This document shows, in pieces, positions 34,662 through 56,950 of a DNA stretch of 64,000 nucleotides. The position numbers and the translations under genes were made by a program. The stretch's first letter is position 1. The number at the start of each line of letters is the position of its first letter. Source of the stretch: Tetraselmis striata (lineage: Eukaryota; Chlorophyta; Chlorodendrophyceae; Chlorodendrales; Chlorodendraceae). The notes beneath the pieces were generated by a model. It did no database searches. It saw only the letters and a program-made list of their open reading frames with translations, and was not told the origin of the DNA. The stretch is from NCBI GenBank assembly GCA_006384855.1, contig VCJN01003431.1, positions 62,001 through 126,000 on the forward strand, given 5' to 3'.

Positions 34662-34933
34662 TTTCAAAGTTGAGTCTAGTTTTGCCAAAAAGGGCGCGCA
34701 GGCTGTTTTACACGGTCAAGAGCCGAAATTGAACGCAGCGAAAACTGGAAGATGGCAGGCTCAGCTGTTCTGGCTGCTTTTATGTCTACTCGTGCTGCAC
34801 CCAACAAGGGCGCAACAACAGTTACTAGTTCCGGTACCACTGAGCAGCACTTGTAGCTAAAAAGCGGTTAGGTCAAGGATGGAAACCCCATAAACTAGTT
34901 TAGATCATTTCAAAGTTGAGTCTGGTTTTGCCA
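34662..34933 (-). repeat. B1-A2-B2 terminal repeat block of the YR element
   Basis: B2 at 34662-34687 and B1 at 34908-34933 are near-identical 26-base repeats flanking A2 (34688-34907). A2 matches the far end of the element at 49762-49939. The same order and related sequences occur at 53462-53868 in another element. Confidence 0.88.
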
Positions 34934-34986
34934 GTCTTGAGCGAACGCAGAGAGCGGTGGATTGACGGAGAAGGGGTAGCGCCAAG

Positions 34987-36573
34987 TCATGAAGGAGGCA
35001 CTGGGAAGGCCACCGCTGCGGAGTCCTGTTGGACTTGGAAGTGGCGGAGGGGGGCGATGTGTCCAAAGAAGAACCACGCGCCAGGAGAAGGAAGAACGTT
35101 GGGGTCGATGTAGTCCAGAACGACATCAGAGTTAGTGGCCCAACCGCCTTGGTAGCGGATGTGGGACAGTGGCGCTCCGATGGCGTTTGCTGCAGAGGCT
35201 GCGCCCTTGCGTAGACTGTGTGAAGTCCAGGAAGTGCCAGCAGGAGGGGCAGCGTTGATTAAGTTGACTGCTGTAGACAACCAGTTTGACATCGTAGCCG
35301 CATTCCAAGGTTTTGACTGCTCAGCCACATTGACAGCCCAGAAGTTGGAGGCAGCCAAGCCAACAGTAACCAGGGGGACAAACTGGACGTTGTCGATGAA
35401 GTGGTGCAAGAGACGTGTCACTCGAGGGTGCTCGGACACTGGAAGGAGAAGTACGCGCAGGTCGTCGGGTCCCCGCCGGCCAGCGCGACCCTTCTCGCGG
35501 GAGATCTGCAAGGTGATGTTGTAGGTGTCGACATGCACATCTTGCACTCGACAGGAGACGCCAGTAAGGCCCCTGGCAAAGAACATAAAGTTGACAACCG
35601 AGGCCAAGAGGGCTCGGTAGTCGAGGTGGGACTCTGGGTAAGGAGCAAACACAATTAGCTCGGCCTTTGAGACGAAGCGGGAAGCTACATCCGCAGGCAG
35701 AGGGACACGCAAAGGGGCAGCGTCCAGTCGGCGCTGACGCAACATTAACCCACGTCTTGCTGAAGTGAGGTGTAGGCTGTCCTTGGCGATCGGGACGAGG
35801 TTGTGCAACTCGAAGAAGGTGTTGATGGCAGACAGGTAGGGCTGCAGCGATTTAGCTGCGATGTGCCCTCGCTCCCCGATCCAGGCAACGTACCGAACAA
35901 CAGTAGCAGTAGTCGCTTCCAGCGGGCTGATGTTCTCGGAGTCGTGGCAGAACTCAGCGAACTGAGACAACCTGCCGGCGTAGCTCTTGAGGGTCTGAGC
36001 GCTGAGGGAGCTGGAGAGCAGGTCGAGCGTCCGCTGGCCTAGCTCGTCTGAGCCGAACGCGTCCTGCAGTCGAGATCGCAGTGACGCAGCCCATGGAGCG
36101 ATAGCTGCGGGCTCGTCAATTACGTAAGTGCGTCGTTTTACTGGCAGAGTTCCACCGGCACGGCTACTGTTCGCAAAGTACTCGGCAGCAACGGTTAGGT
36201 TCCCGGCGGTTGGCCGGTAGTTGCTGGACGGGTTTGCAGTAGCTCCAGTACGGGTTTGCGGGGCTAGGTTCAGGTAAGAGGGCCGCCCCGCGCGCCCTTC
36301 GCGCTCGTAGCGCCTGTCACGTGCGTAACGTACACGCGCGAGACTTGGTCGTTGCGAACCGGTTGTAACACGTAGTGTAACAACCGACGAACGCAGAGAT
36401 GGGGTTGTAAGAAAGGCGGATGGTTGAGCCGCCATGTGCAGGCGTGCGGATGGTTGAGCCGCACTCGGCTGTAGCTGTAAGAAGCGCCGCACCGAGGAAG
36501 GTCTAAATGAAGTCTGTAAGGTGGGGGGGTCAGCAGAAAAGGCCAAAACGCGAGCAAAAAGGTACAGTACCAC
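34987..36573 (-). CDS. Tyrosine recombinase (integrase) of split-repeat element
   Basis: A 528-codon frame whose last 350 residues form a tyrosine recombinase: an N-terminal SAM-like core-binding part (TLKSYAGRLSQFAEFC, ATVVRYVAWIGERG, SLQPYLSAINTFF), then the catalytic domain with R in MFFARGLTG near residue 333, HSLR near 452-455, GGW near 475 and the nucleophile Y in LDYIDP near 488. So the R...HxxR...W...Y set is complete. The first 11 codons (36573 to about 36541) belong to the end of MULE2, and the true upstream sequence lies beyond it at about 48650-48728 in the same frame. The recombinase would cut and join the repeat block or a circular intermediate. It is intact apart from the insertion. 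Confidence 0.9.
   Translation of the reverse strand: MVLYLFARVLAFSADPPTLQTSFRPSSVRRFLQLQPSAAQPSARLHMAAQPSAFLTTPSLRSSVVTLRVTTGSQRPSLARVRYARDRRYEREGRAGRPSYLNLAPQTRTGATANPSSNYRPTAGNLTVAAEYFANSSRAGGTLPVKRRTYVIDEPAAIAPWAASLRSRLQDAFGSDELGQRTLDLLSSSLSAQTLKSYAGRLSQFAEFCHDSENISPLEATTATVVRYVAWIGERGHIAAKSLQPYLSAINTFFELHNLVPIAKDSLHLTSARRGLMLRQRRLDAAPLRVPLPADVASRFVSKAELIVFAPYPESHLDYRALLASVVNFMFFARGLTGVSCRVQDVHVDTYNITLQISREKGRAGRRGPDDLRVLLLPVSEHPRVTRLLHHFIDNVQFVPLVTVGLAASNFWAVNVAEQSKPWNAATMSNWLSTAVNLINAAPPAGTSWTSHSLRKGAASAANAIGAPLSHIRYQGGWATNSDVVLDYIDPNVLPSPGAWFFFGHIAPLRHFQVQQDSAAVAFPVPPS
36524..36533. repeat. MULE2 target site duplication, left copy
   Basis: GGGGGGTCAG here and at 48640-48649. The exact length (9 or 10) is ambiguous because of the G run. 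Confidence 0.82.
36542..36564 (+). repeat. MULE2 left terminal inverted repeat (core)
   Basis: Twenty-three bases identical to the reverse complement of about 48609-48631. The terminal 8 bases outside it differ (CAGAAAAG here, GGGAGGGA at the right end read inwards). Confidence 0.85.
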
Positions 36574-36832
36574 GAGGTCCTAGTTTTGCTGCTGTTTTTC
36601 GAGCCAAATCACGATGTCCGTTTAGGGTTTACTGTTCTGCCTTAATATACTGTTTTCGCCGCCACCTGTGCGGGAGTGTGAGGCTCGAACATATGCGCGA
36701 CGGCTGCCGTAACGAACTAGAACCACCTCCCCCTCGCATCCACCCACACTCCTTGTCACGCCTCTCGGGCTGTGGTCACCCTTGCTAGCCGTACAACCCG
36801 TCGGAGTGAAGCGCGGGCCACTAGACGCCCAT

Positions 36833-38493
36833 ATGACGGAGCCGTACCTGCGACGGTCCATGCGCAATGTCGCTTGGGGGGTGAAGCCAGCGGACGGCCC
36901 GCTGGAGGACCCTCCAGACGCTCGGCGGCGGCGGCGGAGGCCCACCCCGGAGGTGGAAGGCCCGGGCACGGCTCCTATGCCGGTAGCTCAGTCCCAGCCA
37001 GCACCTTCGCAGGCGCGGCGGTCTTCGCGGCGGGTGCGGGGGAAGCCGCCCTCTTTGTATTGGCCCCGCCTGGGGTTTGACGAGGAGTCTGATGCGGATA
37101 TATCTGATAGCGGCCAGCATCCGGCCAGTGTTCCGCCGACAGTCGTGCAAGCCTCGCTACCGGCGTCTACGGTACGCACCGCGGCAGCGCAGCGCCCAAT
37201 TACGAGATCAGGGGTTCCACGCATACCTGACGGCGATTCCATGCAACAAACCCAAGATTTACTGCCGGTAACACAGGATATCGCCAGGGCTTTGGACATG
37301 GTTCGCCCCCACACTCCCCACCCCCCCCCCCCCCCCCCCCCACCCCCACCCCAACCGCCGAACCCCAACCCCACATCTCACTAAAGGTATTGAACTCACC
37401 CATTCCCTCCTCGACGCAGTCTCCCCCCTCGGACGAAGGAGAAAAAGGCGAGGTCAGTGAGGCGAAACCAAGGCGCCGCGAGGTACGCACTAGGCCCTCT
37501 GAGCAACAATCTGCGCGAGGAGTAACAATCTGCGATACAGCAGATTGCGTTAGTACTTACAGTTCAATATATCACAGGGCAAGGCTCCCATGACCCAGGC
37601 GCAACTGCAGGATGAGGCCCTACAGCAAGCACGCGCTGCTGCTACTTCCACTGCTGATGTAGCTGCTGCGGGTGACGAGGGTGGCGCCGGGTTTCCCGAC
37701 GCTGGGCCGTCAAGGCTGCCGACAATCTTGGAGGAGGGGGCGCCAGAGTCGCTTTTGCACTTGCAAGACAGACTTGATGCTGTTGACAACGAGATTGCTT
37801 CCTGTGAGGAGTCGCGTGTTCTCCTCGAAGCCGAGATTGAACGTCGCAGAGCCCAGGTGGCCGCCCTCGCTCGACAAGCGGGGCAGCTCTTCACCAACCA
37901 TTCCCAAGATTTCAAGAAGCGAGATCGCCCGCCTGTGCGGAAACTGGCCCACTTCGAGGAGAGTGTGGGGCTTCCCGAGGAGCAGGGAATGCTTTGTGCC
38001 GTCCAATGTCGTCTTGAGGAAGTGCTTACTCGTCTGGACGAGCTGCGTGAGGTAGGCCTGTCACGCTTGCATTTCGCGTGTCGCACCGCCTCGTGTGAAC
38101 ATGAATGCATCGCCTTTATGTATCACACGTCTCACTGCTTCTAGCCCACCCTCGTAGGAGAAGGACAGGTTGCTGGCTACCATATCGGGACCTCACCTGT
38201 CCGAGCACCGCCACGACGTCGTCCCGGAGACACCCGTGCCGGCCGACTCTCCCGATGATGGGACTGGGACCACCGAGGGAGCTCTGCGCAAACAAGGGGA
38301 CAGGACGCAACCGGCACGCAGTAGGCCGCCGAAAAAACTTGCGGCGGAGGCGGTACCCCACGAGCCACCATCCGCCGCACGAGCCTCCGACGGCCTCGCC
38401 GACGACGACGCCCAGGACGAGGTCTTCTACGACGCAGGAGAGGAGCCCGCCTCCTGTGAACGCGAGGACGGTGTGAACTTGGTTTCCGATACG
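36833..38493 (+). CDS. MULE2 cargo gene, 5' exons: basic/acidic disordered and coiled-coil region
   Basis: Exons inferred: 36833-37267 (ATG at 36833; DARRRRRRPTPEVEGPG, QARRSSRRVRGKPPSLYWPR), 37420-37482 (SPPSDEGEKGEVSEAKPRRR), 37578-38051 (QLQDEALQQARAAATS, LLHLQDRLDAVDNEIASCEE, LLEAEIERRRAQVAALARQA, a coiled coil) and 38158-38493 (EKDRLLATISGPHL, DDDAQDEVFYDAGEE). All introns are GT-AG, and the last junction is phase 0, as is the acceptor at 40255, implying continuation across a 1.76-kb repeat-filled intron. The basic N-terminus could bind DNA or target the nucleus. No named domain. MULE1 has a similarly placed ORF. Confidence 0.55.
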
Positions 38494-40255
38494 GTGGGTG
38501 CACCCGCACTATGCTTGCCGCAGTATAAATTTAGAACTGCCCATTTACGTGCAAGGGCCCAACAATCTGTGTTTTGTCGTCGTGCCTATGCGCATGCATG
38601 GCGCTTCCGTGCCGCATGAATACGACTTGTACAAGTCTACAAAGTATAAGGGGCTCTTTTTTAGGCAGTTCCCGCCTGCGGAAGGCAACAATTGAAGTAC
38701 ACCGCATGAACCTACGGCACGCTATCACAAAGTACGTCGTACCTCGGGTGTGGCTACCTACAGCTGTCTTGACGGCAAGCCTATGCGCTTGTGTCATGTA
38801 CGCAACTATTATCCGAACGATGACAGTGTTTCAACGTTGTAGGCAGTAGAAATTAAGCAACAATCTGCGGTGCAGCGCAGCAATCTAGAGGAGCGGCTAT
38901 CTACCTGTGCCTTGTCTTCAAGCCTATGCGCCCGCATAATACCTCTAAGCCGCAGTACTGGGAAGTGTAATATCTGATATGGAGTTAATATATGAATAAG
39001 GCAACAATCTGCGGCGGGGCGCAACAATCTAGGGCGTGCCTTAACGCTGGGTAAGGCTAATATGTGTAGCACCTTCTGCGGCACCTCGCAGCAATCTATG
39101 CCTTGTCGCAATCATAAATGAAGCAACCAGTGTAGTACCCGCTAGTAACATGTTTGTATCGCCGAGTGTATCGGGAAGACTTGATCTCTCCTGAGCTATG
39201 AATCGGAGGAGGACCGGTTTTCAAACAATCTTGACTGTTTCGTTCGGTAGGTAATTAGCACTCGGCAGTGCTGCGCAACAATCTACGGCCTGCCGCTACA
39301 AACAAACACGCCAGCAAAGCCTTTCCATATGTAAGATCGTCACGCGTATGCACATTCATACGGATTTAAATGCACATAACGGCTTGTATCCATGTAGGGC
39401 GATACGGTGTGCCTGGAGACAACAATCTGCGGCACCTCGCAGTAATCTATGCTTTGCCGTAATCACATGTAAAGCAGCCAGTGTAGTACCTCCTAGGAAC
39501 ACGTTCCTATCACCCAGTGTATTCGGAATATTTGGTCTTTCACGCCCTATGAATAGGAGGAGGACGGGTTGTACAACAATCTAGGCAGTAACGGCGGGTA
39601 GGTAGCAATCTGCGGAGCAGCGCAGCAATCTAGGGCCTACTGCTGGACACACAAGGTAGTGCAACCTTTTGATATGTATTATCGTCAATAATGTGCACAT
39701 TCACACTGATAATTGCATGCCATACAAATGCAGGTAAATAACTGGTCGTATCCATGTATGGCGATACGGTGTTCCCAGAGACAACAATCTGCGGCCCCTG
39801 GCAGCAATCCATGCCTTGCCGTAATCACAGCTAAAGCAGCCAGTGTAGTACCTGACAGGAACATGTTCCTATCACATGAGTATTTGGAATGTTTGGTCTG
39901 TTATGCCCTATGGATCGGAGGAGAACAGGTTTTACAACAATCTAGGCAGTTACGGCGGGTAGGTACCTATCTGCGGAGCGGCGCAACAATCTGGGGCGTA
40001 CCGTTGGACACACTAGCTAGTGAAGCCTTTTGATATGTATTAACATCAGGAGTATGCACATACACACTGAGACAAACATGCCAAACAGATGCATATACCT
40101 GGCTAGGCTGCAATAATGTGGAGTATAGTATGCCGACAGTAAACAGCTATCTACGCCTTTTCCGTAGAGCCACTGTGGACTAGGTCAGGCACCGCAAACA
40201 ACGGGTGGGGCCACGAGCATGTGTTCCTTGTACTTATAACGGTTTTGTGCCGTAG
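38494..40255 (+). repeat. AACAATCT repeats and ~360-bp tandem units in MULE2 (presumed intron)
   Basis: The motif CAACAATCTGCGG or GCAACAATCTAGGG and near variants occurs more than a dozen times, usually in pairs about 20-30 bases apart. At 39070-40060 the pairs are embedded in about three imperfect ~360-base tandem units (CGTAATCACA...AAAGCAGCCAGTGTAGTACC...TGGAATRTTTGGTCT). No coding sequence is supported within. Confidence 0.85.
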
Positions 40256-40947
40256 AACTCCGAGGACTGGAGGCAACTGCGCCTCGCTCGCCGGCCTCGA
40301 AGCCACCCCGTTATTCCGCCCTCGTGGGACCCCAACCATGACTCCTTCCGGAAGTGGTTCGCGAAGTGGCCACGTGCAACAGAGGACATGGCCCGTGAGT
40401 ATTCCCTCATGTGGGCGGAACTAGACCACCTCTTGACGCGCGGCCCGACAATGTGGATGAACTCCGAATGGTCATATTGCTTCGCGGACGCGTTTCTTAC
40501 CTTGTGGCCCTCGCCGCCTGGCGTCGAGTTCCGACTGTGTATCTGCTCTTTCGATAGTACTCTTCACGGCACGAAGGACCTCGTCGCCAAGTACGAGAAG
40601 GTATCTGTCCGGCCGGAGCCGCCTCCTGGCACTTTGGTCGTTTGGTTCCACCTCTTCTGCCCGTATGGTACTCTTTGTAACCCTGTCGGAGCCGACACGG
40701 GCGCCGGCCACTATGCCACTGCGATATGGCAAACCATAAACCGCAAGATTGTGGCGCCCGTCTTCTTGTACGACAGCCTAAAGGTGATCGCGCGTGGCAC
40801 TCTTCCTTTAGTCGAGTCGGGAGACTACCCAAGCCACGCCAACGCTCTATGGGAGGTTACGCGGTCTGACAGCGCTGTCTTGCCGAAGTTGCTCCGGGGC
40901 ATCACCTCTCATCAAGGAGGCCGCATCACCGAATCCATGATAAGGAT
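40256..40947 (+). CDS. MULE2 cargo: Ulp1/C48-like cysteine protease domain (partial match)
   Basis: The acceptor CCGTAG at 40255 opens a frame NSEDWRQLRLARR...WDPNHDSFRKWFAKWP...MNSEWSYCFADAFLTLWP...GHYATAIWQTINRKIVAPVF, then LYDSLK. WMNSEWSYCF resembles the WLNDE-type start of Ulp1 folds, and GHYATAIW...LYDSL resembles the catalytic His strand and the Asp of the HW...YDSL motif. I cannot find the Gln/Cys part (Q...DCG), so either it lies in an unrecognised exon or the domain is inactive. The frame stops at 40951 unless spliced at AGGAT|GTAGCG (40947). C48 domains are known cargo of plant MULEs (Kaonashi type), which fits the context. Confidence 0.45.
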
Positions 40948-41003
40948 GTAGCGCCGAAACGCGTAGGGTCGCCGCCCAGTAAGGGAACCTCACGTGCAGC
41001 CAG

Positions 41004-42653
41004 TGCACGCGTCGACGTGGGGACTTGCACGGATCCGGTAGCCCTTGAGAAATCAACGACTTCTGGAAGTGCTCCACGCGCCTTGCCCAAGCCGGCTCAA
41101 GCCCCCGATAAGCCGCCTTTAATTCCTTCACCTGAAGTGCGGCCCTTGCCATTCCCCGCTGCCACGGACAAGCCGCAAGATGGTTTCGTGGCGAGTCGAG
41201 TGCCTCCGCTTGACGACCCCCTCCGCCACGAAGCGATAGGAAGCAAGCGCTTCCTCGCGAGAGGCCACGCTTCATTTTACGTGGGTAGTGACCGCACTAC
41301 ATGTCGCAGACTGGGAGAGGAGCTCATGCGCAGGCGCTCCGAGCTGACAGGCAATACGGACACTTGTCCGTTTCAGCCCGCCACCGGCATGCGCCAAGAG
41401 ATGTTGCTAGACTGCGACGGTAAGCGCGTGGCACCATTCACGGCTGCCCAGATTGTGCAACCCTTACTAGGGTAAGTTATGCCCTAATTCTGAATGTAGT
41501 AATGGGCCAAATCTGCAGGTCCCACAGACCCACGGTGCTTGGTGCCGGGCTCAAGGCGGGCTGCAGTCGGGGACTGGCTACGCAACTCGTCAGGAGGCGC
41601 GGAGCTATACAGGGACTTGCAAGGCTTCGTCACGGAGGTCGTAGACGAAGCGGGGCGAAAACTTGCGTTCCGAGCCAAGATGCTGCCTGTCGAGCGGACT
41701 CTTGTGTATTCTCCGGCAGGAGCGCCGACAGGCATGGAGACTATCAGCAACGGTGTCGGAACAGTCTTGCTCCTCGTCCACTTCACGTGCTGCAACCCTC
41801 TGATGCTCGTGCGAAACGCGCCTGACATACCCATAAGGGACGCCGTCAAGTGGGCTTGTCCACGACTCGTGCGCCCCCTCTTCGCCTATATGTGCTTGTA
41901 AGTTGTGCCCTTCTCGGCATATATGAAAGTTCGTATAACTAACCCCCCCCCCCCCCCCCCCCATTCACTTGACCTTACGTACAGGCGGAACGCGCATCAA
42001 CTTTTCCATTGGGCTCCGAGGCATACTTTACAGCCTTCTATCCGTCTCTTAATATGCTAATGGCCGGCGGCGGCAGGAACCTATGCCAAGATCGCGTCAT
42101 TACCCGGAAGGAGCTCGTGCCTTGGGGGCTGCTTGACGAGGACCACCTTAACCGATGTGGTGGCAGCTCCGACCGCGCTTCATACTCCACGATGGGTCTT
42201 GTAGTCGCGCTTCCAGGCGAGCGAGTGATTGCAGACGCGGCGGTCGGGGGCATTCATCCGGCAACCGTGACGAGGTGCCGTGACTGTGTCCAGTGGGCGG
42301 GGCAGGCCGTCGACGGGCATTTCTACCTGAAAGTTGTCCTGGCGCCCGCTGACGGAGCAAGTCTGCCTGGTATGCAACTCACGCCATTGGACATGACGTT
42401 CAACAGGCACCTGTTCCCTACGCCCTACAACGACATTTGCGACCAACAGGTCGAGCAGCATCGCCGCGCAATGCAGGTGTCCCCGCAATGGGCGAATGTC
42501 TTGGTTCACGACCGCGTGCCGTCTCCGCTGAGGCCGAGCATCGACTTCGCGCTCAGACTCCATGCGAGCGCTGGCGAGACTGACCAATTGAAGCAAGCAT
42601 CCTTCATATTCCCTCACAGCCGCGTGGGGTCACAATCGGGCAACGCGAGGTGA
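41004..42653 (+). CDS. MULE2 cargo exons, unknown (three segments)
   Basis: Open pieces: 41004-41471 (VDVGTCTDPVALEK, proline-rich, then FLARGHASFYVGSDRTTCRR and LLDCDGKRVAPFTAAQIVQP, ending at GG|GTAAGT); about 41526-41895 (AAVGDWLRNSSGGAELYRDL, FVTEVVDEAGRKLAFRAKML, FAYMCL|GTAAGT); and about 41985-42653 (GSEAYFTAFYPSLNMLMAGG, TRKELVPWGLLDEDHLNRCG, LVVALPGERVIADAAVGGIH, PWG...LDMTFNRHLFPTPYND). Poly(C) runs precede the acceptors. Phases between the first two do not fit without adjusting a border, so one splice site is wrong or the gene is damaged. The amino-acid composition is that of real protein, but I recognise no domain. Confidence 0.5.
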
Positions 42654-42787
42654 AACTCCCCCTGGACTTAGCATTTACCGAGTTAGTTCGCGCGGTCCCC
42701 CCCCCCCCCTCCCACCCCGCCTCCCGCAACCTATGTAAACAATGTGTTTAGCCTCAGTCCTTGTCTCATTTCAATATGGCCTCGCAG

Positions 42788-43490
42788 GGATACGGGAAAA
42801 GGAGTCCCCAGGTTGGGTGCTACACGCCATCAGTTTATGCTCCGGTTGTGCTGGGGAATGCCAGGCAATTGGGCGGATGGCCACATCTCCCGGGCTTTCA
42901 AAAAGTATGCGCATTTACAGGTGAAACCGACACCTCCCTGCATACCGACATGGCCCTGGGAGTAGTTGCCTCTAATCCAGGCCGTTCCAAGCCTGACTTC
43001 GAGTTTTGTGTGGGATCCGTGGGCCGGCAAGGGCGGCACGAGGTCGGCGCTGCAAGCTACGAGGGTATTGCTTAGCGACGTGGTAGCCTACGCGGGCAAC
43101 GACTTTGTTGCTGATGCTCTATGCCCGGATACACACACAAGAGCTCGAAGAACAATCGGCGAACCATATGTCATAGTGACGTCGCCTTGGTTCAGTCTTC
43201 TCGACCTCTTCATTCCTTTGGCGGCGAAGTCGGCAGCAACAATGACTTGCGTGCAGGCACCAGTGACGTACCTCACGCAGGGACCCCCTCCAAGAACTGC
43301 TTTCTTTCGAAGTCTCGCTGAATATCGCAGACTGTGCGTTGTCATGTCTGCTCAAGCCCGAAACCCCCTGACACAACAGCGCGCGCTATGGATTGTGATT
43401 TGTCAGGTCGGCGAGGAAGTAGACCGGCATATATGCGGATCGGAGGCCTCCGCCCTCGTACCACTAATAATTGAAGGTGTTCCACGATAG
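42788..43490 (+). CDS. MULE2 cargo: class I methyltransferase-like exons
   Basis: Exon 42788-42920 (MLRLCWGMPGNWADGHISRA, FKKYAHLQ) joins in phase to exon 42981-43490. The latter reads SSFVWDPWAGKGGTRSALQ, which has the DP-x-G-x-G form of SAM-binding motif I, then VLLSDVVAYAGNDFVADALC (acidic loop-like), then EPYVIVTSPWFSLLDLFIPL, where TSPWF stands at the place of the (D/N/S)PP(Y/F/W) motif of amino-methyltransferases, and ends RRLCVVM...QRALWIVI...EGVPR. The order and spacing fit Dam-like/N6-adenine methyltransferases of the kind also carried by DIRS-type elements. The second Pro of the motif is replaced by Trp, so activity is doubtful. It ends just before the 372-bp satellite. Confidence 0.5.
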
Positions 43491-43559
43491 CATGTAGCAT
43501 GTAATTGATTCTGCGACTTGACAGTACCTGACTAGCAATCTATGCTTTGCCATCCAGCC

Positions 43560-44960
43560 TCGGCCCTTTTAAAATACACCAGCAATTCCTCGGGCAGGGA
43601 AAGTGTTGCAGTCGTGTAGGCAGGTACCGCGGGCTGCGGGCAACAATCTGCGGTGCAGCGGTGCAATCTAGGGCTCGTCGTCGCGAACATGAAGTACAAG
43701 GGGATGTGGCTAGATACATGTGTCTTGTCCTCTAGCTCTTACGCATGTGGTGTGGCTAGATACATGTGTCTTGTCCTCTAGCTCGTACGCCACATAGTCC
43801 GGGGATGTAAGCAGCCGTGTATTGACCGTAATAGTACATGCGGGACGCAACAATCTGCGACGGTGCGCAACAATCTAGGGTGTTCCGCATAACGCGAGGT
43901 GAAGTCGTCAGGCGAGTACCCGGACAGCAATCACTGCTGTGCCGTCGAGCCTATGCGCTTGTATAATACCACGTTTGCACCTAGCACTGAGACAATAGAA
44001 GTGTTGCAGTCGTGTAGGCAGGTACCGCGGGCCGCAGGCAACAATCTGCGGTGCAGCGCTGCAATCTAGGGCTCGTCGTCGCGAACATGAAGTACAAGGG
44101 GTTGTGGCCGGATACATGTGTCTTGTCCTCGAGCTCTTACGCAAGGATAATACCCGTACGCCACATAGTCCGGGGATGTAAGCAGCCGTGTATTGACCGT
44201 AATAGTACATGCGGGACGCAACAATCTGCGACGGTGCGCAACAATCTAGGGTGTTCCGCATAACGCGAGGTGAAGTCGTCAGGCGAGTACCCGGACAGCA
44301 ATCACTGCTGTGCCGTCGAGCCTATGCGCTTGTATAATACCACGTTTGCACCTAGCACTGAGACAATGGAAGTGTTGCAGTCGTGTAGGCAGGTACCGCG
44401 GGCTGCGGGCAACAATCTGCGGTGCAGCGCTGCAATCTAGGGCTCGTCGTCGCGAACATGAAGTACAAGGGGATGTGGCTAGATACATGTGTCTTGTCCT
44501 CGAGCTCTTACGCAAGGATGATTCCCGTACGCCACATAGTCCGGGGATGTAAGCAGCCGTGTATTGACCGTAATAGTACATGCGGAACGCAACAATCTAC
44601 GGCGGTGCGCAACAATCTAGAGTGTTCTGCATAACGCGAGGTGAAGTCGTCAGGCGAGTACCCGGACAGCAATCACTGCTGTGCCGTCGAGCCTATGCGC
44701 TTGTATAATACCACGCTTGCACCTAGCACTGAGACAAGGGAAGTGTTGCAGTCGTGTAGGCAGGTACCGCGGGCCGCAGGCAACAATCTGCGGTGCAGCG
44801 CAGCAATCTAGGGCTCGTCGTCGCGAACATGAAGTACAAGGGGATGTGGCTAGATACATGTGTCTTGTCATCGAGCGCCTATGCACGAGGGAGGAGAGTG
44901 TTACAGCGCTGTAAGCAGTTCACCCTGACCGAAGGCAACAATCTGCGGTGCAGCGCAACA
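43560..44960 (+). repeat. 372-bp satellite, about 4 units, in MULE2
   Basis: The unit is marked by GTGTTGCAGTCGTGTAGGCA at about 43601, 43999, 44372 and 44743, and by GTTCYGCATAACGCGAGG at about 43881, 44253 and 44624. Spacing is 371-372 except the first unit, which holds an extra about 26-45-base duplication near 43740-43795. Each unit contains two AACAATCT pairs. Units are about 98% identical by eye, so the array is young or homogenised. Confidence 0.92.
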
Positions 44961-45012
44961 TTATAGGCGAACTATACATGCGAAACTGCAATCCCTATAC
45001 ACCCGCAAATTA

Positions 45013-48000
45013 CTACTTCTTCCCCTTCGACTGACACCACCAAGGATCCTCGAGGGAGCCGGAAGAGCACGACATTCCGCTGATGGATTTCGCGGGATCC
45101 GGTGCTTGCGTTGAAACACGTTTGCGCCTTTTAGGCGCCTTCTGCTGATCGCCAACTTCCCTTGCAGCTAATTTTTTCCGCTTGTAGCGTTCACGAGCCA
45201 TCAGATTCCTTCGAAACCTCCGCGCCTCCGCCAGGGCCTCTTCAGCCTGTCGTAGAGCTCTGCGTGCCCGGAACCCGACGGGTTTAGCAGGAGGCTCCCG
45301 GAGAAGGCCTCTCGCCCAAGGCGCTTTGCCACTCGTCGAGGCCCGCAAACGGCTGGCTTTCGCGGCTCGACCGGGATCTCGTTTCGCCGTTTCGACTGCA
45401 GCCGGCGCGCCCGGCCTTTCACGCGTAGCGGGGACTTGGGCAGGTTGTGGCGTAGACGAGGGCCGCTTGGGATGGCAGACCACCGGTTCGGCTAAAGCCG
45501 AGGCGATATCCGGTGCCCTAGTACGCAGGGCTGGGGCAATTACTTGCGGCGAAGAAAGGGCAGTCTCGGGATCCAAAGCGGAACCGGACGCAACCCTCGC
45601 GAGGTTGCGAGTCGCGGCAACTGGCGTCTTTGTCTCGCGAGGCACCGGAGGTGCGTCTAAAACTCGTTTTGCGGTGGTCGTCCGCTTCCGACGGATGTCA
45701 GAGGGAGGCTGCGCTGATCCGCGTGTCGCGGGAGTTGAAGTGTTCAGACGGTCAGAAGTATCGTCTGGCCGTCGTCGATTGCCGCCGCGCCCCCGACGCC
45801 GGGGCGCTTGTCCCTCCAAAGGTTGGACGATCAGGGCCGGAGTTGCATGCGCAGGTCGGAAGGGGGGGCGCTCGCCCCCCATTGGGCGCACCCCGCCGCT
45901 GAACCGCCTGAAAACAACGTCGTCTGTTAGTGCTCGCCACAGGTACAGATGTCCGCACTGGCGATGGCACATGAAACTCTTGCAGTCGCAGGATATCCCG
46001 AGACCTGGTAGGTCCCAAACGCGGTTTAGAGACCCGCATGTCCGTCTGACGCCTCCGATTGTGGTGCAAGACGGAGGCAGGTCACCGCATAGACTTCTCT
46101 CATAATCGGTGACGCGTCGGTCGGTGACGTTGTCCTCAACGAGAGGGTCGGCATTTACGTAAAGGTCGCCATTCTTCCACTTGTACGCGGTTAAGCCAGT
46201 ACGCGCCGGCGTCGCAAAGTCCATGGCCTCGTGCACAAGCGTTGAAAACTCCTTTGTCAAGCCATGGTTGAAGGGCTCGTTATCCTCCCGGAACTGCCGG
46301 CCTTGCAGCTTGCACATCTCCTGGAAAGTTGTTTCCAATAGGGTGTCGGTGGCTCGACGACGTGGCCCCATGTCTAGTTCGGCCTTCATGGACTTGTGCC
46401 AGCTCTCTTGAGGATTTGTAGAGGCCGGAACTCCCCCAACACCAGTGGATATGTTCCAGTCCAGGTTGTCGTCGAGATACTGGCCCTCCAGCCAAGCTGC
46501 AGCCCGGCTCTCGCCTTTTCGCCGCAACTCGGCCATGAGGACTGCAGACACGGCGACTGCCTGCTCCGTCGTCCGACACAAATGTATAACGTTGACGACG
46601 CTCCGCAGGAATCCGACATTGGCGGTGCGATTGCGTAGAATGGGGACTGGCCGCCCGCCCTCCTTGATGCGGAAACTTGGGCTGTCGACCTTGCGGTGCA
46701 AATGCACCCAACAACTCACTCTCTGCGACGCGGACACCGTTGTAAGCCCCGTGGCATTAAAAAACAAAGTAGGCGGGAGGTGACTTGTATACGGGAAGCC
46801 CTAGATTGTTGCGCCCCGCCGCATGGTGTTGTCTTCGGCATGCATTTAAAACAAACCGCGATCGAGCGTAGTCCTTCAAGTATTGTGTGACATACCTTCG
46901 CACTTGGAAAAACAGCCGGAATGGCAGCGCGGACGCCGACCCCCCTGTCCGAAACCACGGCATGCGGTGACGGTCGTTGGCCAAACAACTCCTCGCAGGA
47001 GTCTACCACAGCCTTGAATAACGTGCAGAAAGCGCCTTCGCTCTCCGTTCTCGCGAAGCAAAACGCGATTGGTATGAAGGAGTTGACGAGATCGACGTGG
47101 CTATTAGTCGGGGGTCTGATTGTTGTTGTTCCCACCGTTAGCAAGACCCACCGATTGAAGGACACCTTGTGCGTGCCATCGGTCATGAAATGTAGCGGCA
47201 GGCCACTGAGTTGAACGTACTGAACCGTCCTCAGTAGCTCGATTGTGGAGAACGCCACTGCCTCGGCTTCAGCTTGTACGCCATTCCGAAGCACGAACAA
47301 CTTATCAACCTCGACGTCGTCATCCATATTCTGAGGGGCGGGCAGGAGATTGGAATCCACCCACTCTTGCAAGTCGGCAAAGGAAGACAGCGCACGTACT
47401 CCCTTCCCTTTCACCGCGAGAGCCCTCTTCCATCGCTGAACCTTTTTTAGCAATTCGGGTCGCCCCCCTTCGGGGACTCCCGCGTCCCGTAGCTCCTGCG
47501 ACGTGAAGCGGTTCAACGCCTTCTTCGGGGTCATGCCGCAGTCAGTGATGAGGGGCTTCAACTTGGGGCGTAGAGCCTGTGGCACGCCGTCGTCATCGCC
47601 TAGCTTCGCCGCCGTGTGCGACACGTTGTTGTACTCAATGCCCCACTTTCCAGATGACGCTTGAACGGCTCGTAGTCTCGCTGCGCATCCGGCATGACTC
47701 CGGCAAGCGTAGACCTTCCACGGCGCAGGAAGCACGCCATACACGCCCGTTATTTAGGCTAGCATAAAGGCCGTTTGAGGAAATAAATGCACCCGCGAGC
47801 CTTACCTTCGCGGCGCTAGATCGGTGGAGGTAGCGCCACTTTTCGCCGAAGTCGAGAATATCAGTCTTCAAGGCCTTGTACGACTCCCACTCTCTTTCAT
47901 CTACAACCGGCCTTAACCACTCATGATCATGTCCTCCTGACTTGGAAGGTTGGTGTTCTTGGACCGGGACGCTGGTAGAAGGCTGCGTGCGAGGCGGTAA

Positions 48001-48372
48001 GCGAGTCCCGGTACGGGTTGGGGTTGTAGCTTCCGGCCGAAACTCTGGCAGCGACGCAAGGGCTTCACGGTCTGCGGGCACCCCCCCTCGAATGTTTGAA
48101 GCCTCAGCCGGTGCTGGGAACTCCCGGTCATTAGGCCCGACGCTAGCCTCCTGTCCAGCGCTGCCATGTGTTGGAGTCGCACCAGTTCGTGGAAGCACCG
48201 GAACCTCAGCCAAGGAGCGGTCGACAAATCTAGTCAGCAAGCCCCGTGCCGTATCGGCACCAAGCGCAGGTTCCAGACGCTGCAACATCGACCACACACG
48301 CTCAGAATTGACCTGCATGTACTGAAACATGCCGTCGATATGCTCGCCATTGGACCACGCCGAATTTGACAT
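45013..48372 (-). CDS. MULE2 transposase (Mutator-like, DDE, SWIM zinc finger)
   Basis: Three exons: 48372-47806, 47714-46896 and 46722-45013, about 1031 residues, introns of 91 and 173 bases with GT-AG ends and consistent frames. Exon 1 carries a helical N-terminal region (WESYKALKTDILDFGEKWRY). Exon 2 opens with a FLYWCH/WRKY-like zinc finger (VYACRSHAGCAARLRA...NNVSHT), then the catalytic core: first Asp in LHFMTDGTHKVSF, second in HAVVSDRGVGVRAAIPAVFP. Exon 3 continues CWVHLHRKV, with the Glu in STNPQESWHKSMK, and a SWIM finger ISCDCKSFMCHRQCGHLYLW; its tail is basic and disordered (RRRGRGGNRRRPDD). The DDE triad and both fingers are present, so the protein may be active. Intron 2 contains an AACAATCT motif. 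Confidence 0.9.
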
Positions 48373-48608
48373 GGCTATAAGGTAGGAGGCCTATGGGGCG
48401 CGGCACGGGTGTGGCGAGTGATGCCTCCCGTTGCGATAACCGTTGACGACACAATCTAGAAGCCGCGGTCGTGCCAGCGCCATGATCCCAGTACTTAATG
48501 CAACTGTACGAAACCCTAAATTCGTCCTTTTCGGTATAACGAGATTTGGCTCACTTTGCTCGGATTAGGGCTCAAAAACAGAGCCAAAACACGGTGCGCG
48601 TGATACAT

Positions 48609-48631
48609 TACCTTTTTGCTCGCGTTTTGGC
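48609..48631 (-). repeat. MULE2 right terminal inverted repeat (core)
   Basis: Reverse complement of 36542-36564. A T-rich/GAGCC stretch further in (48530-48600) also resembles the left subterminal region in reverse. Confidence 0.85.
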
Positions 48632-48639
48632 TCCCTCCC

Positions 48640-48649
48640 GGGGGGTCAG
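48640..48649. repeat. MULE2 target site duplication, right copy
   Basis: GGGGGGTCAG, matching 36524-36533. Beyond it the YR element resumes. Confidence 0.82.
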
Positions 48650-48728
48650 GTCCTGACACAGGGCGCTCATCCCGCCATTGAGCTGCAAGGGTGCGTCTTG
48701 CGGCGGTCACCGAAAGGTGGCCTCGCAA
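48650..48728 (-). pseudogene. 5' end of the YR ORF, separated by MULE2
   Basis: The - strand frame RRTLAAQWRDERPVSGPDPP runs into the target duplication here and continues, in the same frame, on the other side of MULE2 (TLQTSFRPSSV at 36530). It therefore belongs to the recombinase ORF at 34987-36573. No obvious start codon is seen; the frame overlaps the end of the gag-like ORF, so translation by frameshift or reinitiation is possible. Confidence 0.7.
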
Positions 48729-48764
48729 GGCTCCTGCAGCTCCGACGAAAGGCGCCCCACACCG

Positions 48765-49640
48765 TCACTCGTGCTCACCTTCGCGGCCACGTCCACGTCC
48801 GCCGCCACGTCCTCGCCCACGCCCGCGTCCTGCAGCTGCAGCCGCTACTCGAGAAGTAGCGGTCGCCTTGGCGCTGCTGGCAACGGTCGCCTCGAAGACA
48901 CGACGCTCGTAGTCCCTCATGAGGTCCCCAAAAATCGCAGAACCCAGATGCTCCGAAGCAGGCTGAAAATGCTGGGCTCGCAGCACGTCCAGAACACCTT
49001 GGTCACCGTGCACACGCTTGATCTCATTCAGCCTCCGCAGGAAGGCTAGACGAAAACGAAACGCCTTGTCGATGGCCTCGGCGTGATTCCGAGCTCTCGC
49101 GAGGTAGGGGGTGAAGTCCTGGTTAGTGGCGGGGACGTAAGGTAGCAGCTCGTCGAGCGCCACGAAAAGGGCGGCCATGTGGGCCCCAAAACACGACATC
49201 CACAAGTACTCCTCCTGGGCCGGCAGACGCCGGTCATCCTGCTTGAGGTACTCGTTCGTTAGGTCGGTGCTCAAAGGGAAAAGTCCAGGCACTCGGCTGA
49301 CCGGTCGAACGGCCTCGTAACCAGACTCTGCTCTCTGCAGTAGCTCCGGCACCGCGAGGTAATCATCCTCGGCACTCACGGATTTTGCTCCGACACGGCC
49401 GCTTTGGGCTAGCTCTAGCAAGTCGGGGCGCTCTGCGGCTCCCCCGCTGCCTGTCGGCTGTCCCGCGAAGCGCTGCCCTGAGCCGGAGCCATGTGCCCCT
49501 TCTCCATCAACAACGCGATCACGAGCCGTCAATTGTGCCACAGCTGTAGCCAGCTCTCGCAGTAATGAAGACTGGGCCCTCATATCTGCGTTCAACGACT
49601 CCAACGTCGGCTCAGCGACGGGTTCTTCTCCATCTGGCAT
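48765..49640 (-). CDS. Gag-like protein of the split-repeat YR element
   Basis: The start is taken at the ATG at 49640 (MPDGEEPVAEPTLESLNADM). An N-terminal coiled coil (RAQSSLLRELATAVAQLTAR) is followed by a helical core (RRLPAQEEYLWMSCFGAHMA, ALDELLPYVPATNQDFTPYL, AIDKAFRFRLAFLRRLNEI, VLRAQHFQPASEHLGSAIFG) and a Gly-Arg tail (GRGRGRGRGGGRGRGREG). This layout, an all-helical capsid-like body with an RG-rich nucleic-acid-binding tail instead of CCHC knuckles, is what gag-like ORFs of DIRS/PAT-group elements look like. It directly precedes the recombinase with no RT between them. Confidence 0.7.
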   Translation of the reverse strand: MPDGEEPVAEPTLESLNADMRAQSSLLRELATAVAQLTARDRVVDGEGAHGSGSGQRFAGQPTGSGGAAERPDLLELAQSGRVGAKSVSAEDDYLAVPELLQRAESGYEAVRPVSRVPGLFPLSTDLTNEYLKQDDRRLPAQEEYLWMSCFGAHMAALFVALDELLPYVPATNQDFTPYLARARNHAEAIDKAFRFRLAFLRRLNEIKRVHGDQGVLDVLRAQHFQPASEHLGSAIFGDLMRDYERRVFEATVASSAKATATSRVAAAAAGRGRGRGRGGGRGRGREGEHE

Positions 49641-49761
49641 GGTAACGCACGGACGTACGGACGAGAATATCACACTCGGGTGGCGAGCCGGGTGTGGTCT
49701 TGAACAACCTGGGGTGACCTTGCTCGCAACGGGTTACGAGACAGTTTTTACATCGCTGCGT

Positions 49762-49939
49762 GGAACGCAGCGAAAACTGGAAGATGGCAGGCTCAGCTGT
49801 TCTGGTTGCTTTTATGTCTACTCGTGCTGCACCCAACAAGGGCGCAACAACAGTTACTAGTTCCCGTACCACTGAGCAGCACTTGTAGCTAAAAAGCCGT
49901 TAGGTCAAGGATGGAAACCCCATAAACTAGTTTAGATCA
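49762..49939 (-). repeat. A1 repeat of the YR element
   Basis: About 178 bases matching 34730-34907 with only a handful of substitutions and the same orientation. No B copy adjoins it, which distinguishes the arrangement from LTRs. Confidence 0.9.
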
Positions 49940-51380
49940 GAACGGGTACCGGTTGTAAATGAATATAGGTACTTGGGTACGATCATTAAGTCGGATTTAG
50001 GTATGCAACACATAGTAGACGACCGGGTTGAGAAGGGCAAACGCGCTATTGAGGCGCTCGATTCGGTATTAGTCGGTGGATGGGACATAATTCCTAGTAA
50101 TGTGCGTGTGTCGGTTTTTAAAACCTGTGTAATGCCGGTTTTAACTTATGGGTGTGAAGTATGGGGCATGGATAGAACTAGCGGCGCAAATAAATTACAA
50201 ACCGTACTCAATCAATGCTTGCGGTGCCTCATTGGGGTAGGTAAAAACTCCCCTGGGGTGGCCAGTGCACCAATGATGCGGGAATTGGATATTGCGCCCA
50301 TAGAGGCTACAGCCGCTGCGGCACGGGCTCGGGCGTTCCTTAAAGCATCCGACTTGAATACATGTATAACCCATTTAGTAGATCAGCCAAGTTGGGCGCG
50401 CCCTAACACGTGGACGTCATGGACTGTGCGGTGGTTAGATCGACTAGCTAGGGCGAACGTAGGGCTAGCTGAGGGGGCGCACCTTCCACTTGAGTGGAGG
50501 TCACTAGCCGCGCGCGATGCCGCTAAACTAGTAAAGGCATCGGTGTGGGCGCGTTACGAATCGTCGGCATCGTTAGCACGCAATAACACTTGGGGTATAT
50601 ATGTCCAGGCGTCTTATGCGTCAAACCCGTTGCCACAGTACGGTGTGGGTGTCCCCGCGGGGGTGGTGGCCGGGTTGCACATTATGATACAATTACGCAC
50701 CCGAGTATTTCCCACTGCCCGCCGATTGGCCCGGATTCATGCCATGCCTGAGCGGTTCCTGGAACACTGCCCTGCATGTGGCGGAGGTGAATCTGAGACT
50801 ATCGAACATATGTTGGTGGAGTGCCCGCGGTGGGGGTATCACCGTCATAATTTTGGGTTGTTAGTTCCGGAGTTCAGGGATTTTATTAGTAGTCAGGTTA
50901 TTGCGTCAACACCTGAGGACTTAACTGCCTTTATTTTGGGCGGGGTCCCCCCCTCCCTTCACGGCGCCCTGGATTTCACTGGGAATGGGGAATTTTTCCA
51001 GCTATGGCGTCGGGCCCTCCCTCACATTGCCTGTTTTGTTGCACATGTATTGCACTCCCGAAATGCTTTGCTCCGCGGGTTGGGGCTTGCCCCAACTCGC
51101 ATTACTCGAATGGGCCGACGCCCAAACGGGTAGGGCGGACCTTTCGTGGTCAGTGCCGGGTATTTTGATGGCAGTGTTTTAGACGGTGATCCAACAGTGT
51201 TGGAATTCCGTCATTGGCCTCCAATTAGTCTTGCAGAATGCTTCGGCGATTTGCTTGATGACTTTAACGGAGCGTCGCCTACCCATGGCTTTCCGTAACT
51301 GGATTGCTGCCTAAACGGCCGTCGTAGAGACGCTGCAAGGGTTTCACTGGTGCCAGTCCTGTCCCGGGGGCGAAAAAAAA
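49940..51380 (+). mobile_element. LINE2 copy, 5'-truncated, best preserved
   Basis: It begins at or near the YR element border and ends in GTCCCGGGGGCG followed by nine A's (51372-51380). It contains the C-terminal end of the LINE2 ORF2 (49973-51133) and a ~240-base 3' UTR whose sequence recurs at 21589-21905 and 55391-55495. The split-repeat element at 51389 starts a few bases after the A tail. Confidence 0.85.
49973..51133 (+). CDS. LINE2 ORF2 C-terminal part (RT thumb and zinc knuckle), 5'-truncated
   Basis: A 386-codon open frame starting within the protein: KSDLGMQHIVDDRVEKGKRA, then VMPVLTYGCEVWGMD, the conserved block that follows the RT palm in LINE ORF2 proteins. It continues through RCLIGVGKNSPG and LEHCPACGGGESETIEHMLV...C, a C-x2-C...H-x4-C finger typical of LINE ORF2 ends (zf-RVT type), and finishes MGRRPNG. 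The RT catalytic motifs themselves lie upstream and are missing. The frame is intact over its whole length, unlike the copy at 15 kb, so this insertion is younger or was under recent selection. Confidence 0.85.
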   Translation: MGTIIKSDLGMQHIVDDRVEKGKRAIEALDSVLVGGWDIIPSNVRVSVFKTCVMPVLTYGCEVWGMDRTSGANKLQTVLNQCLRCLIGVGKNSPGVASAPMMRELDIAPIEATAAAARARAFLKASDLNTCITHLVDQPSWARPNTWTSWTVRWLDRLARANVGLAEGAHLPLEWRSLAARDAAKLVKASVWARYESSASLARNNTWGIYVQASYASNPLPQYGVGVPAGVVAGLHIMIQLRTRVFPTARRLARIHAMPERFLEHCPACGGGESETIEHMLVECPRWGYHRHNFGLLVPEFRDFISSQVIASTPEDLTAFILGGVPPSLHGALDFTGNGEFFQLWRRALPHIACFVAHVLHSRNALLRGLGLAPTRITRMGRRPNG

Positions 51381-56049: not shown

Positions 56050-56950
56050 TTATGGGCGTTGATTTCCGCAAGGTTGAGGATTTCCGGGGGCCAGTGGACG
56101 AGGTATTGGTTGACGCCATCTGGTCCTCGGGCTGTGGAGGTGATGCGGATCACGTCGTTGGTTGGCAGGGGGTTGCGTGGACTGTGAGGGGTTGCGTGCG
56201 GAATTGGGCCGTGCGGGCCTGGGCTGGGGCGCGCTGGGGGTGTAGGAGTGTAGGAATTGTGCAGGTGTAGGTGTAGGAATTGGGCCGGCGGGCCGAGTTG
56301 TGGGCGGCATGCGGTGCGCGGAAGGACAGATAACCATGTGTTGTGCACGGGGAGCCGACGCGTGTCGAAGGAGTGGTAGCGCGGCGGGGGTACGGTACCT
56401 CTTATTGGTAGGGTGAAAATTTGCGATAGGGTATGTAATGCCTTCGGGAGGGCGGATCTGATGGCGGCTGGGGTATGGGTTGGGGCGGCTATGGTAATCT
56501 CTGCGACCGTTTTGAGGCGGTATATGGGGCGTCGTTTTGTCGGTCCGTGGTTTGCCAGCGCGTCCCCCAGGTCTCAAGGCCGACTGCCCAGAGCGGAGCC
56601 ATCATGCGCATTATTGCCGCGGCTTTAGGTTTGGCTTTGTATTGCTTGTACGTGGCGGTACTAGCAGCGGGGGGTAGGTGTTCCGAGAGTTTGGTTCGTG
56701 TTGCTGCCCTCGCGGCCTCGTGCCGGTAGTTGAAGGCCTCGCGGATGGAGGTGGCGAGGTGTGTGTCGTCGGCGAAGGCGTATGAGTACCCCGTGACGTG
56801 GAGGTGCAGGTCGCGGTGAATGTGCGTGAGGCTTTCGCAGTGCCGGGTAGGATTGGGAGGATGCTGTGCATTCCTCCGGCCACTTGGTGTATCTGGCGAC
56901 CGTGTTTCCCGGCCTCGTGCACACCCATCACACAAGGCTGCCCTCCGCCA
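56050..56950 (-). pseudogene. LINE3 reverse transcriptase fragment (inverted)
   Basis: The - strand frame reads HLHVTGYSYAFADDTHLATS, the RT motif C (FADD), then IREAFNYRHEAARAATRTKL, AAIMRMMAPLWAVGLETWGT and, after a frame change, a Pro/Arg-rich continuation toward 56050. RT motifs A and B, which should lie about 40-110 residues upstream, are cut off at the junction near 56950. The block after FADD has the length of the RT palm end and thumb. Non-functional as it stands. Confidence 0.75.

Follow-up and report, generated by a model that had tools for sequence, protein, structure and literature searches.

In this study, we concluded that a compact transposable element of the green alga Tetraselmis striata belongs to a high-copy family with hundreds of copies and is not a single deletion, and that the absence of reverse transcriptase (RT) is a property of this family as far as its copies were read. 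The element lies on the minus strand at positions 34662–49939 of the window, that is, of a 64,000-nucleotide stretch of contig VCJN01003431.1 (positions 62,001 to 126,000 of the contig), and encodes a gag-like protein and a tyrosine recombinase (YR) between split direct repeats. We consider it probable (about 0.73) that the family is an RT-less branch of the PAT/DIRS elements, copied via RNA by an RT acting in trans, with the element's own YR carrying out insertion. The original prediction had described one element of the order A1-gag-YR-B1-A2-B2, about 3.2 kb long once a nested Mutator-like element (MULE) and one target duplication were removed, and this description proved right: the span is a single element in that order, interrupted by a 12.1-kb MULE, with a length of 3162 bp after the same subtraction and 34662 as its final base. 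Its parts are as follows, with a slash marking the junction.

34662..34687, minus strand: B2, 3' terminal split repeat, 26 bp; the element terminates ...ACTTTGAAA
34688..34730, minus strand: A2-B2 linker, containing TGTAA
34731..34907, minus strand: A2, internal copy of repeat A, 177 bp
34908..34933, minus strand: B1, 26 bp; the B1/A2 boundary reads TTTGAAA/TGATC
34987..36579, minus strand: YR frame, 482 amino acids (aa) counted from the likely methionine
36534..48639, no strand assigned: nested MULE, foreign to the element, with its 10-bp target duplication at 36524-36533 and 48640-48649
48768..49640, minus strand: gag-like open reading frame, 291 aa, RG-rich at its C-terminus; a homologue is the gag section of the protein P0133 discussed below
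49763..49939, minus strand: A1, 5' terminal repeat, 177 bp

The terminal repeats are direct and split (A1 ... B1-A2-B2), not inverted; A1 and A2 are 98% identical, and B1 and B2 agree at 25 of 26 bp. Repeat A reaches about 186 bp in other family copies, and the A2-B2 linker of the window copy is about 58 bp shorter than that of most others. The open YR frame extends 46 bases into the MULE, whose target duplication, GGGGGGTCAG, is present on each side.

Genome-wide searches covered the 224-Mb T. striata assembly. Among 7349 first-look candidates for the YR, 81 were scored, 80 of them at 95–97% identity besides the window copy itself, and the match was free of stops in 76 of the 81. Thirty loci from this search were read, of which 29 were further copies, all with A1-gag-YR-B1-A2 and without RT, the exceptions being a partial A1 in L020, a gap in gag of L010 and an A2 cut short in L027. 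The B2 end was complete in 27 of these 29 copies (exceptions L014 and L027), and the 26 copies that could be measured end to end were 3099–3240 bp long, 25 of them 3198–3240 bp. In 108 of the best 120 of 382 protein-model matches, gag and YR were joined in one chain, separated by no more than 61 residues. Exact words from A1/5' untranslated region, from the B1A2 junction and from the linker occurred 596, 689 and 786 times, respectively, and the reversed control gave 0 for each. Positions were taken for the first 100 places of each word, and a junction was found within 12 kb downstream for 68 of the 92 listed A1 sites; the other 24 were uninformative, with no exact junction in reach, and eight A1 sites beyond the reach of the B1A2 list were not counted. 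Sixty-four of the 68 distances fell at 2.5–2.9 kb, one at 3.9 kb and three at 9.5–11.4 kb, and none of the listed pairs stood at about 5 kb, the spacing expected of an RT-bearing copy, or anywhere at 4–9 kb. Three other loci are diverged family copies (L035 and L036 over the Pfam cut-off, L037 below it), and L031–L034 (on contigs C1804, C2009 and C396), also over that cut-off, carry XerC-like and phage-like integrases, look bacterial and, from neighbouring frames read by eye, are probably assembly contamination.

The claim that no RT lies between gag and YR or after YR held for the window copy and for all 29 further copies, and the proposed check of copies without the MULE gave the same answer, both from these copies and from the 64 of 68 end distances given above. 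No RT, RNase H or methyltransferase was present in any family copy read. Searched with two DIRS/PAT RTs, the window gave one weak match, outside the element (56733-56873, 47 aa, E 0.006), and a single scan of viral contigs did not turn up a relative. Three protein models that looked like RT- or RNase H-bearing members were rejected as chimaeras: in P0080 the match is to a Ty3/gypsy-like frame, at 94–100%; P0123 has an RVT_1 match below cut-off, upstream of a gag-YR copy, but does not truly match DIRS/PAT RT; and the RNase H piece of P0075 is located upstream of gag.

Gag and YR both evolve under purifying selection. The ratio of nonsynonymous to synonymous polymorphism (pN/pS) over all pairs was 0.19 for gag (18 copies) and 0.17 for YR (27 copies), drawn from the 29 copies with intact frames only (gag being judged intact by a start-word test), values that are somewhat lowered because intact frames were selected beforehand. 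The YR frame matched the integrase SAM-like domain PF02899 in Pfam at 5.2e-8 and the catalytic domain PF00589 at 0.0012, the latter below the curated cut-off. As predicted, the R-HxxR-W-Y set is complete: in an alignment with RT-bearing relatives, read by eye, R (FAR), HSLR, GGW and YIDP are kept, and so is K (EKG). The predicted gag-like frame with an RG-rich tail also stood, and it showed no significant Pfam match, including zinc finger. Neither frame matched a Dam-like methyltransferase in Pfam, and there is no space for one between gag and YR.

The ends of the copies are exact, the left flank meeting TGATC and the right end reading TTTGAAA, and the B1/A2 sequence TTTGAAA/TGATC is the junction expected of a closed circle. 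Empty sites, which the original prediction had proposed to look for, were recovered at three target sites as uninterrupted target relatives among the sequences examined: at L030 and L115 the insertion had neither removed nor duplicated anything, and at L015 a single base was changed. Both ends could be read in 51 of 59 copies, whose flanks carried T at -2 in 38, A at -1 in 34 and T or C at +1 in all 51, giving the target consensus TA/Y.

A1 and A2 behave like long terminal repeats (LTRs). Both were present in 52 of 59 copies, and there they differed at 1.35 positions within a copy vs 2.92 between copies; no value as low was reached in 20000 permutations, nor after two subfamily markers were dropped. 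The two repeats were exactly equal in 22 of the 52 pairs, 14 different variants were found in both repeats of one copy (four of them also once unpaired), and six shared variants were private to a single copy. Of 28 other copies, 24 have a TATA-like CATAAAAG in A1, and TGTAA, which in the linker we take to be a possible chlorophyte polyadenylation signal, stood 51 bp from the right end in all 26 copies where it was found. A CGCTGCGTTCCACGCAGCG hairpin occurs at the 3' end of A (L003:370-400 and equivalents), and the folding of the A1 region beats 200 shuffles (z -3.4).

Possible sources of RT are present in the same genome. On C973 (C973:123300-132500, covering L073, L072 and L074), a 5.9-kb PAT-type split-repeat element has the order A1, gag (with a CCHC knuckle seen by eye), a 696-aa RT-RNase H-methyltransferase frame, YR, B1, A2 and B2; the YR of this copy is spread over two frames. 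The layout of this autonomous element, with TATAA in A1 and TGTAA between A2 and B2, is similar to that of the compact family. C973-type YRs recur in the genome, the best matches being mostly 459-aa frames. The 122 Dam-domain matches include 20 inside open frames of 696 aa, one inside a 710-aa frame and one inside a 714-aa frame. A Cymbomonas query returned RT-YR frames of 1209–1287 aa, some with stops. RT-RNase H-methyltransferase frames of 849 aa with a stop-free match occur at 28 places (23 from the Cymbomonas query and five from a second, e.g. C1419:86361-88274), and no clade-type or C973-type YR was found beside them among the matches listed, for which the best candidates were scored. RVT_1 frames of about 1540 aa are also abundant and were read as Ty3/gypsy.

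Relatives outside this genome point to the descent of the family. P0133, a protein of 1488 aa from a 134-kb ENA contig, was found by restricting the candidates to long proteins. It has a gag homologue (29% over 153 aa, E 1.2e-11, or 6.5e-14 without composition correction) followed, in the same order, by a YR 40% identical to that of the T. striata family, and the approximately 750 residues between them matched no Pfam family. All possible +1-frame readings of it were scored against the RT-RNase H-methyltransferase stretch of the Cymbomonas protein P0142, and the alignment, which continues through the methyltransferase, reached 1027; 15 shuffles averaged 249 and peaked at 271, while the reversed sequence scored 243 and the other frame 110. 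P0133 therefore reads as gag, RT-RNase H-methyltransferase in +1, and YR. In Cymbomonas tetramitiformis proteins, RVT_1, RNase H and Dam-like domains and a related YR stand on one chain, the YR of P0142 having been detected by sequence search where Pfam, at the threshold applied, missed it. In the YR tree, the Tetraselmis clade (six rows, 100/100) was sister to P0133 (99/97); six of the other eight rows come from RVT_1 proteins, and P0138 and P0145 come from proteins with RNase H and DIRS-type RT-RNase H similarity. The tree is unrooted and holds 15 of 23 aligned rows, gapped and long-branch rows having been removed, with P0165 flagged as a long branch; an earlier tree with two very long branches placed P0133 as sister at 93/96, which was unsure, and was rebuilt without them. 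One RT loss explains this pattern, and since P0133 is the nearest outside relative and has RT between homologous gag and YR, the T. striata lineage probably lost its RT.

The A1/A2 variants, the coding constraint and the signals point indirectly to an RNA cycle, for which we have proposed a plausible course. The RNA would begin below the TATA-like box, within the 3' part of A1, and end between A2 and B2, after TGTAA; Gag made by the element itself would package or escort it. The RT that copies it might then come from other elements, and autonomous PAT/DIRS relatives resident in this genome are the probable source. Such an RNA would be without the 5' part of A1 and without B2, and B1-A2 could supply these ends, so that the resulting circle would carry a B/A junction, which the YR would recombine with a short target of the consensus TA/Y.

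The original prediction had left two accounts side by side, an RT in trans or a DNA-only YR transposon, and the former is favoured because open-frame RT-bearing PAT/DIRS elements share the genome, A1 and A2 are LTR-like and gag is under purifying selection. Several results weigh against it. No RNA, complementary DNA or circle was seen, and no RT donor for the family was identified: at ten RT loci on C1–C350, compared by eye (C44, C71, C79, C130, C136, C158, C194, C280, C306 and C337), the exact family linker word was absent within 5 kb on the same strand, and therefore no donor sharing the family's ends was found. The likeness of A1 and A2 could also come from gene conversion between them, and 71 A1/A2 variants were unshared vs 14 kinds shared, although unshared variants are expected from changes after insertion. 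Past column 143 none of the 14 shared variants was found vs 21 of the 71 unshared (p 0.017, with the cut picked post hoc), which supports an RNA start there weakly. TGTAA, moreover, is not confined to the linker, since L003 has three sites in the element and C973 one more before B1.

If the family instead lived as DNA only, having lost its RT, it would be excised as a Crypton-like circle, reinserted by its YR and gain copies through host replication. The kept YR residues and constrained YR frame fit such a life, as do exact insertion without target duplication and the head-to-tail units joined by B/A in L059 (C1388, period about 2.92 kb) and on C348, where A1-type sites are spaced 2916–2923 bp. 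The two solo A-linker-B units seen flanking L008 and L060 fit it as well. Some linker sites without partner words may also be solo units: among 100 listed linker sites, 46 had B1A2 and A1 at the expected distance, 15 B1A2 only, nine A1 only and 30 neither. However, gag is under purifying selection though a DNA-only element has no known need for it, and YR exchange among circles should unlink A1 and A2, yet copy-private variants are common to both. A1-gag-YR-B1 units lacking A2 would also be expected and were found at none of the 30 YR-selected loci, and the TATA/TGTAA layout suits an RNA cycle. A DNA-only life is therefore disfavoured, and we regard it as unlikely. Quite unlikely, too, is a two-part retroelement in which the gag-YR half and the 849-aa RT-RNase H-methyltransferase partner are each mobile and mutually dependent. 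The 28 places with a stop-free RT frame and no listed YR of either type beside it speak for this division, but none of the ten RT loci on C1–C350 carries the family linker word, and a YR in another frame near the 849-aa frames is possible. That the window copy is an individual internal deletion or a decayed fossil which lost its RT is very improbable. It is split by the MULE, its linker is shortened and it is itself likely dead, yet the shared anatomy, the stop-free YR matches and the low pN/pS across the family contradict this as an account of the missing RT. An RT-bearing relative, the finding that was to have reduced the window copy to an internal deletion, does exist outside this genome in P0133; it bears on a probable loss in the lineage, and individual deletion of the window copy was rejected.

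YR retroelements are viewed as the union of an RT module with a recombinase module, which raises the question of whether either can live alone. Here one lineage apparently dropped RT, yet hundreds of its copies retain the split repeats, Gag and YR, and the two proteins are under selection. With this family one can test whether RT is shared but Gag and YR work in cis, and whether YR retroelements that lose RT are on a route towards Crypton-like DNA elements. If the two-part reading were true, gag-YR and RT-RNase H-methyltransferase elements would replicate only with mutual help, a division of labour that we did not find in the literature searched.

The MULE that interrupts the window copy has terminal inverted repeats of about 64 bp (81%) and a MULE transposase domain on the minus strand; two plus-strand frames were tested, neither with a Pfam match, and its interior holds tandem arrays with a 371-bp unit and 13 copies of a 55-mer bearing CAACAATCT. 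The 3' part of a long interspersed nuclear element adjoins the compact element at 49931-51133, with a zf-RVT match under the curated cut-off, and no continuation of it was seen on the other flank.

Compared with known systems, the family is closest in plan to the PAT and TOC3-like elements of the DIRS order. It shares with them the split direct repeats A1...B1-A2-B2, gag and then YR in the same direction and the lack of target duplication, its gag has no zinc finger found, as in TOC3, and its YR nests with RT-bearing green-algal elements; in contrast, the family copies read are without RT, RNase H and methyltransferase, and measure 3.2 kb vs up to about 6 kb. P0133, compared over its interior, agrees with the family in the order of its homologous gag and YR and differs in the +1-frame RT-RNase H-methyltransferase that separates the two. 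In the part of a nematode YR survey consulted, PAT is given as a DIRS group with split direct repeats and a methyltransferase domain, Ngaro and Viper as without that domain, and Crypton and TEC as DNA elements encoding YR alone (PMC4157794). Ngaro combines RT-RNase H without methyltransferase and a YR, whereas our family has no RT and its nearest RT-bearing relative aligns through the methyltransferase; DIRS1-like elements have inverted terminal repeats, whereas those of the family are direct. The repeat order A1, B1, A2, B2 of VIPER and the correspondence of SIRE to its A2-B2 region are described in excerpts of two reports (PMC6681497; PMC12278014), the latter also giving no target-site duplications. 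VIPER/TATE and SIRE resemble the family in their split direct repeats, and SIRE recalls the solo A-linker-B units, but VIPER encodes RT and RNase H, and SIRE is a short truncated derivative. Cryptons, for which the sections seen of one source give short and not long direct repeats (PMC3212892), also have a YR without RT; they lack gag and long or split repeats, whereas the family has a conserved gag and long terminal repeats, and its YR groups with RT-bearing algal elements. No RT-less gag-YR family appears in the consulted parts of a DIRS overview (PMC3266345) and a fungal survey (PMC3783388), nor in the literature searched, whose coverage leaves out most subscription papers. The T. striata family keeps its recombinase and would borrow RT only. 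Gag-only LTR elements (TR-GAG and BARE2-like), in contrast, keep some proteins and take enzymes in trans, and among split-repeat elements, TOC1 of Chlamydomonas is non-autonomous.

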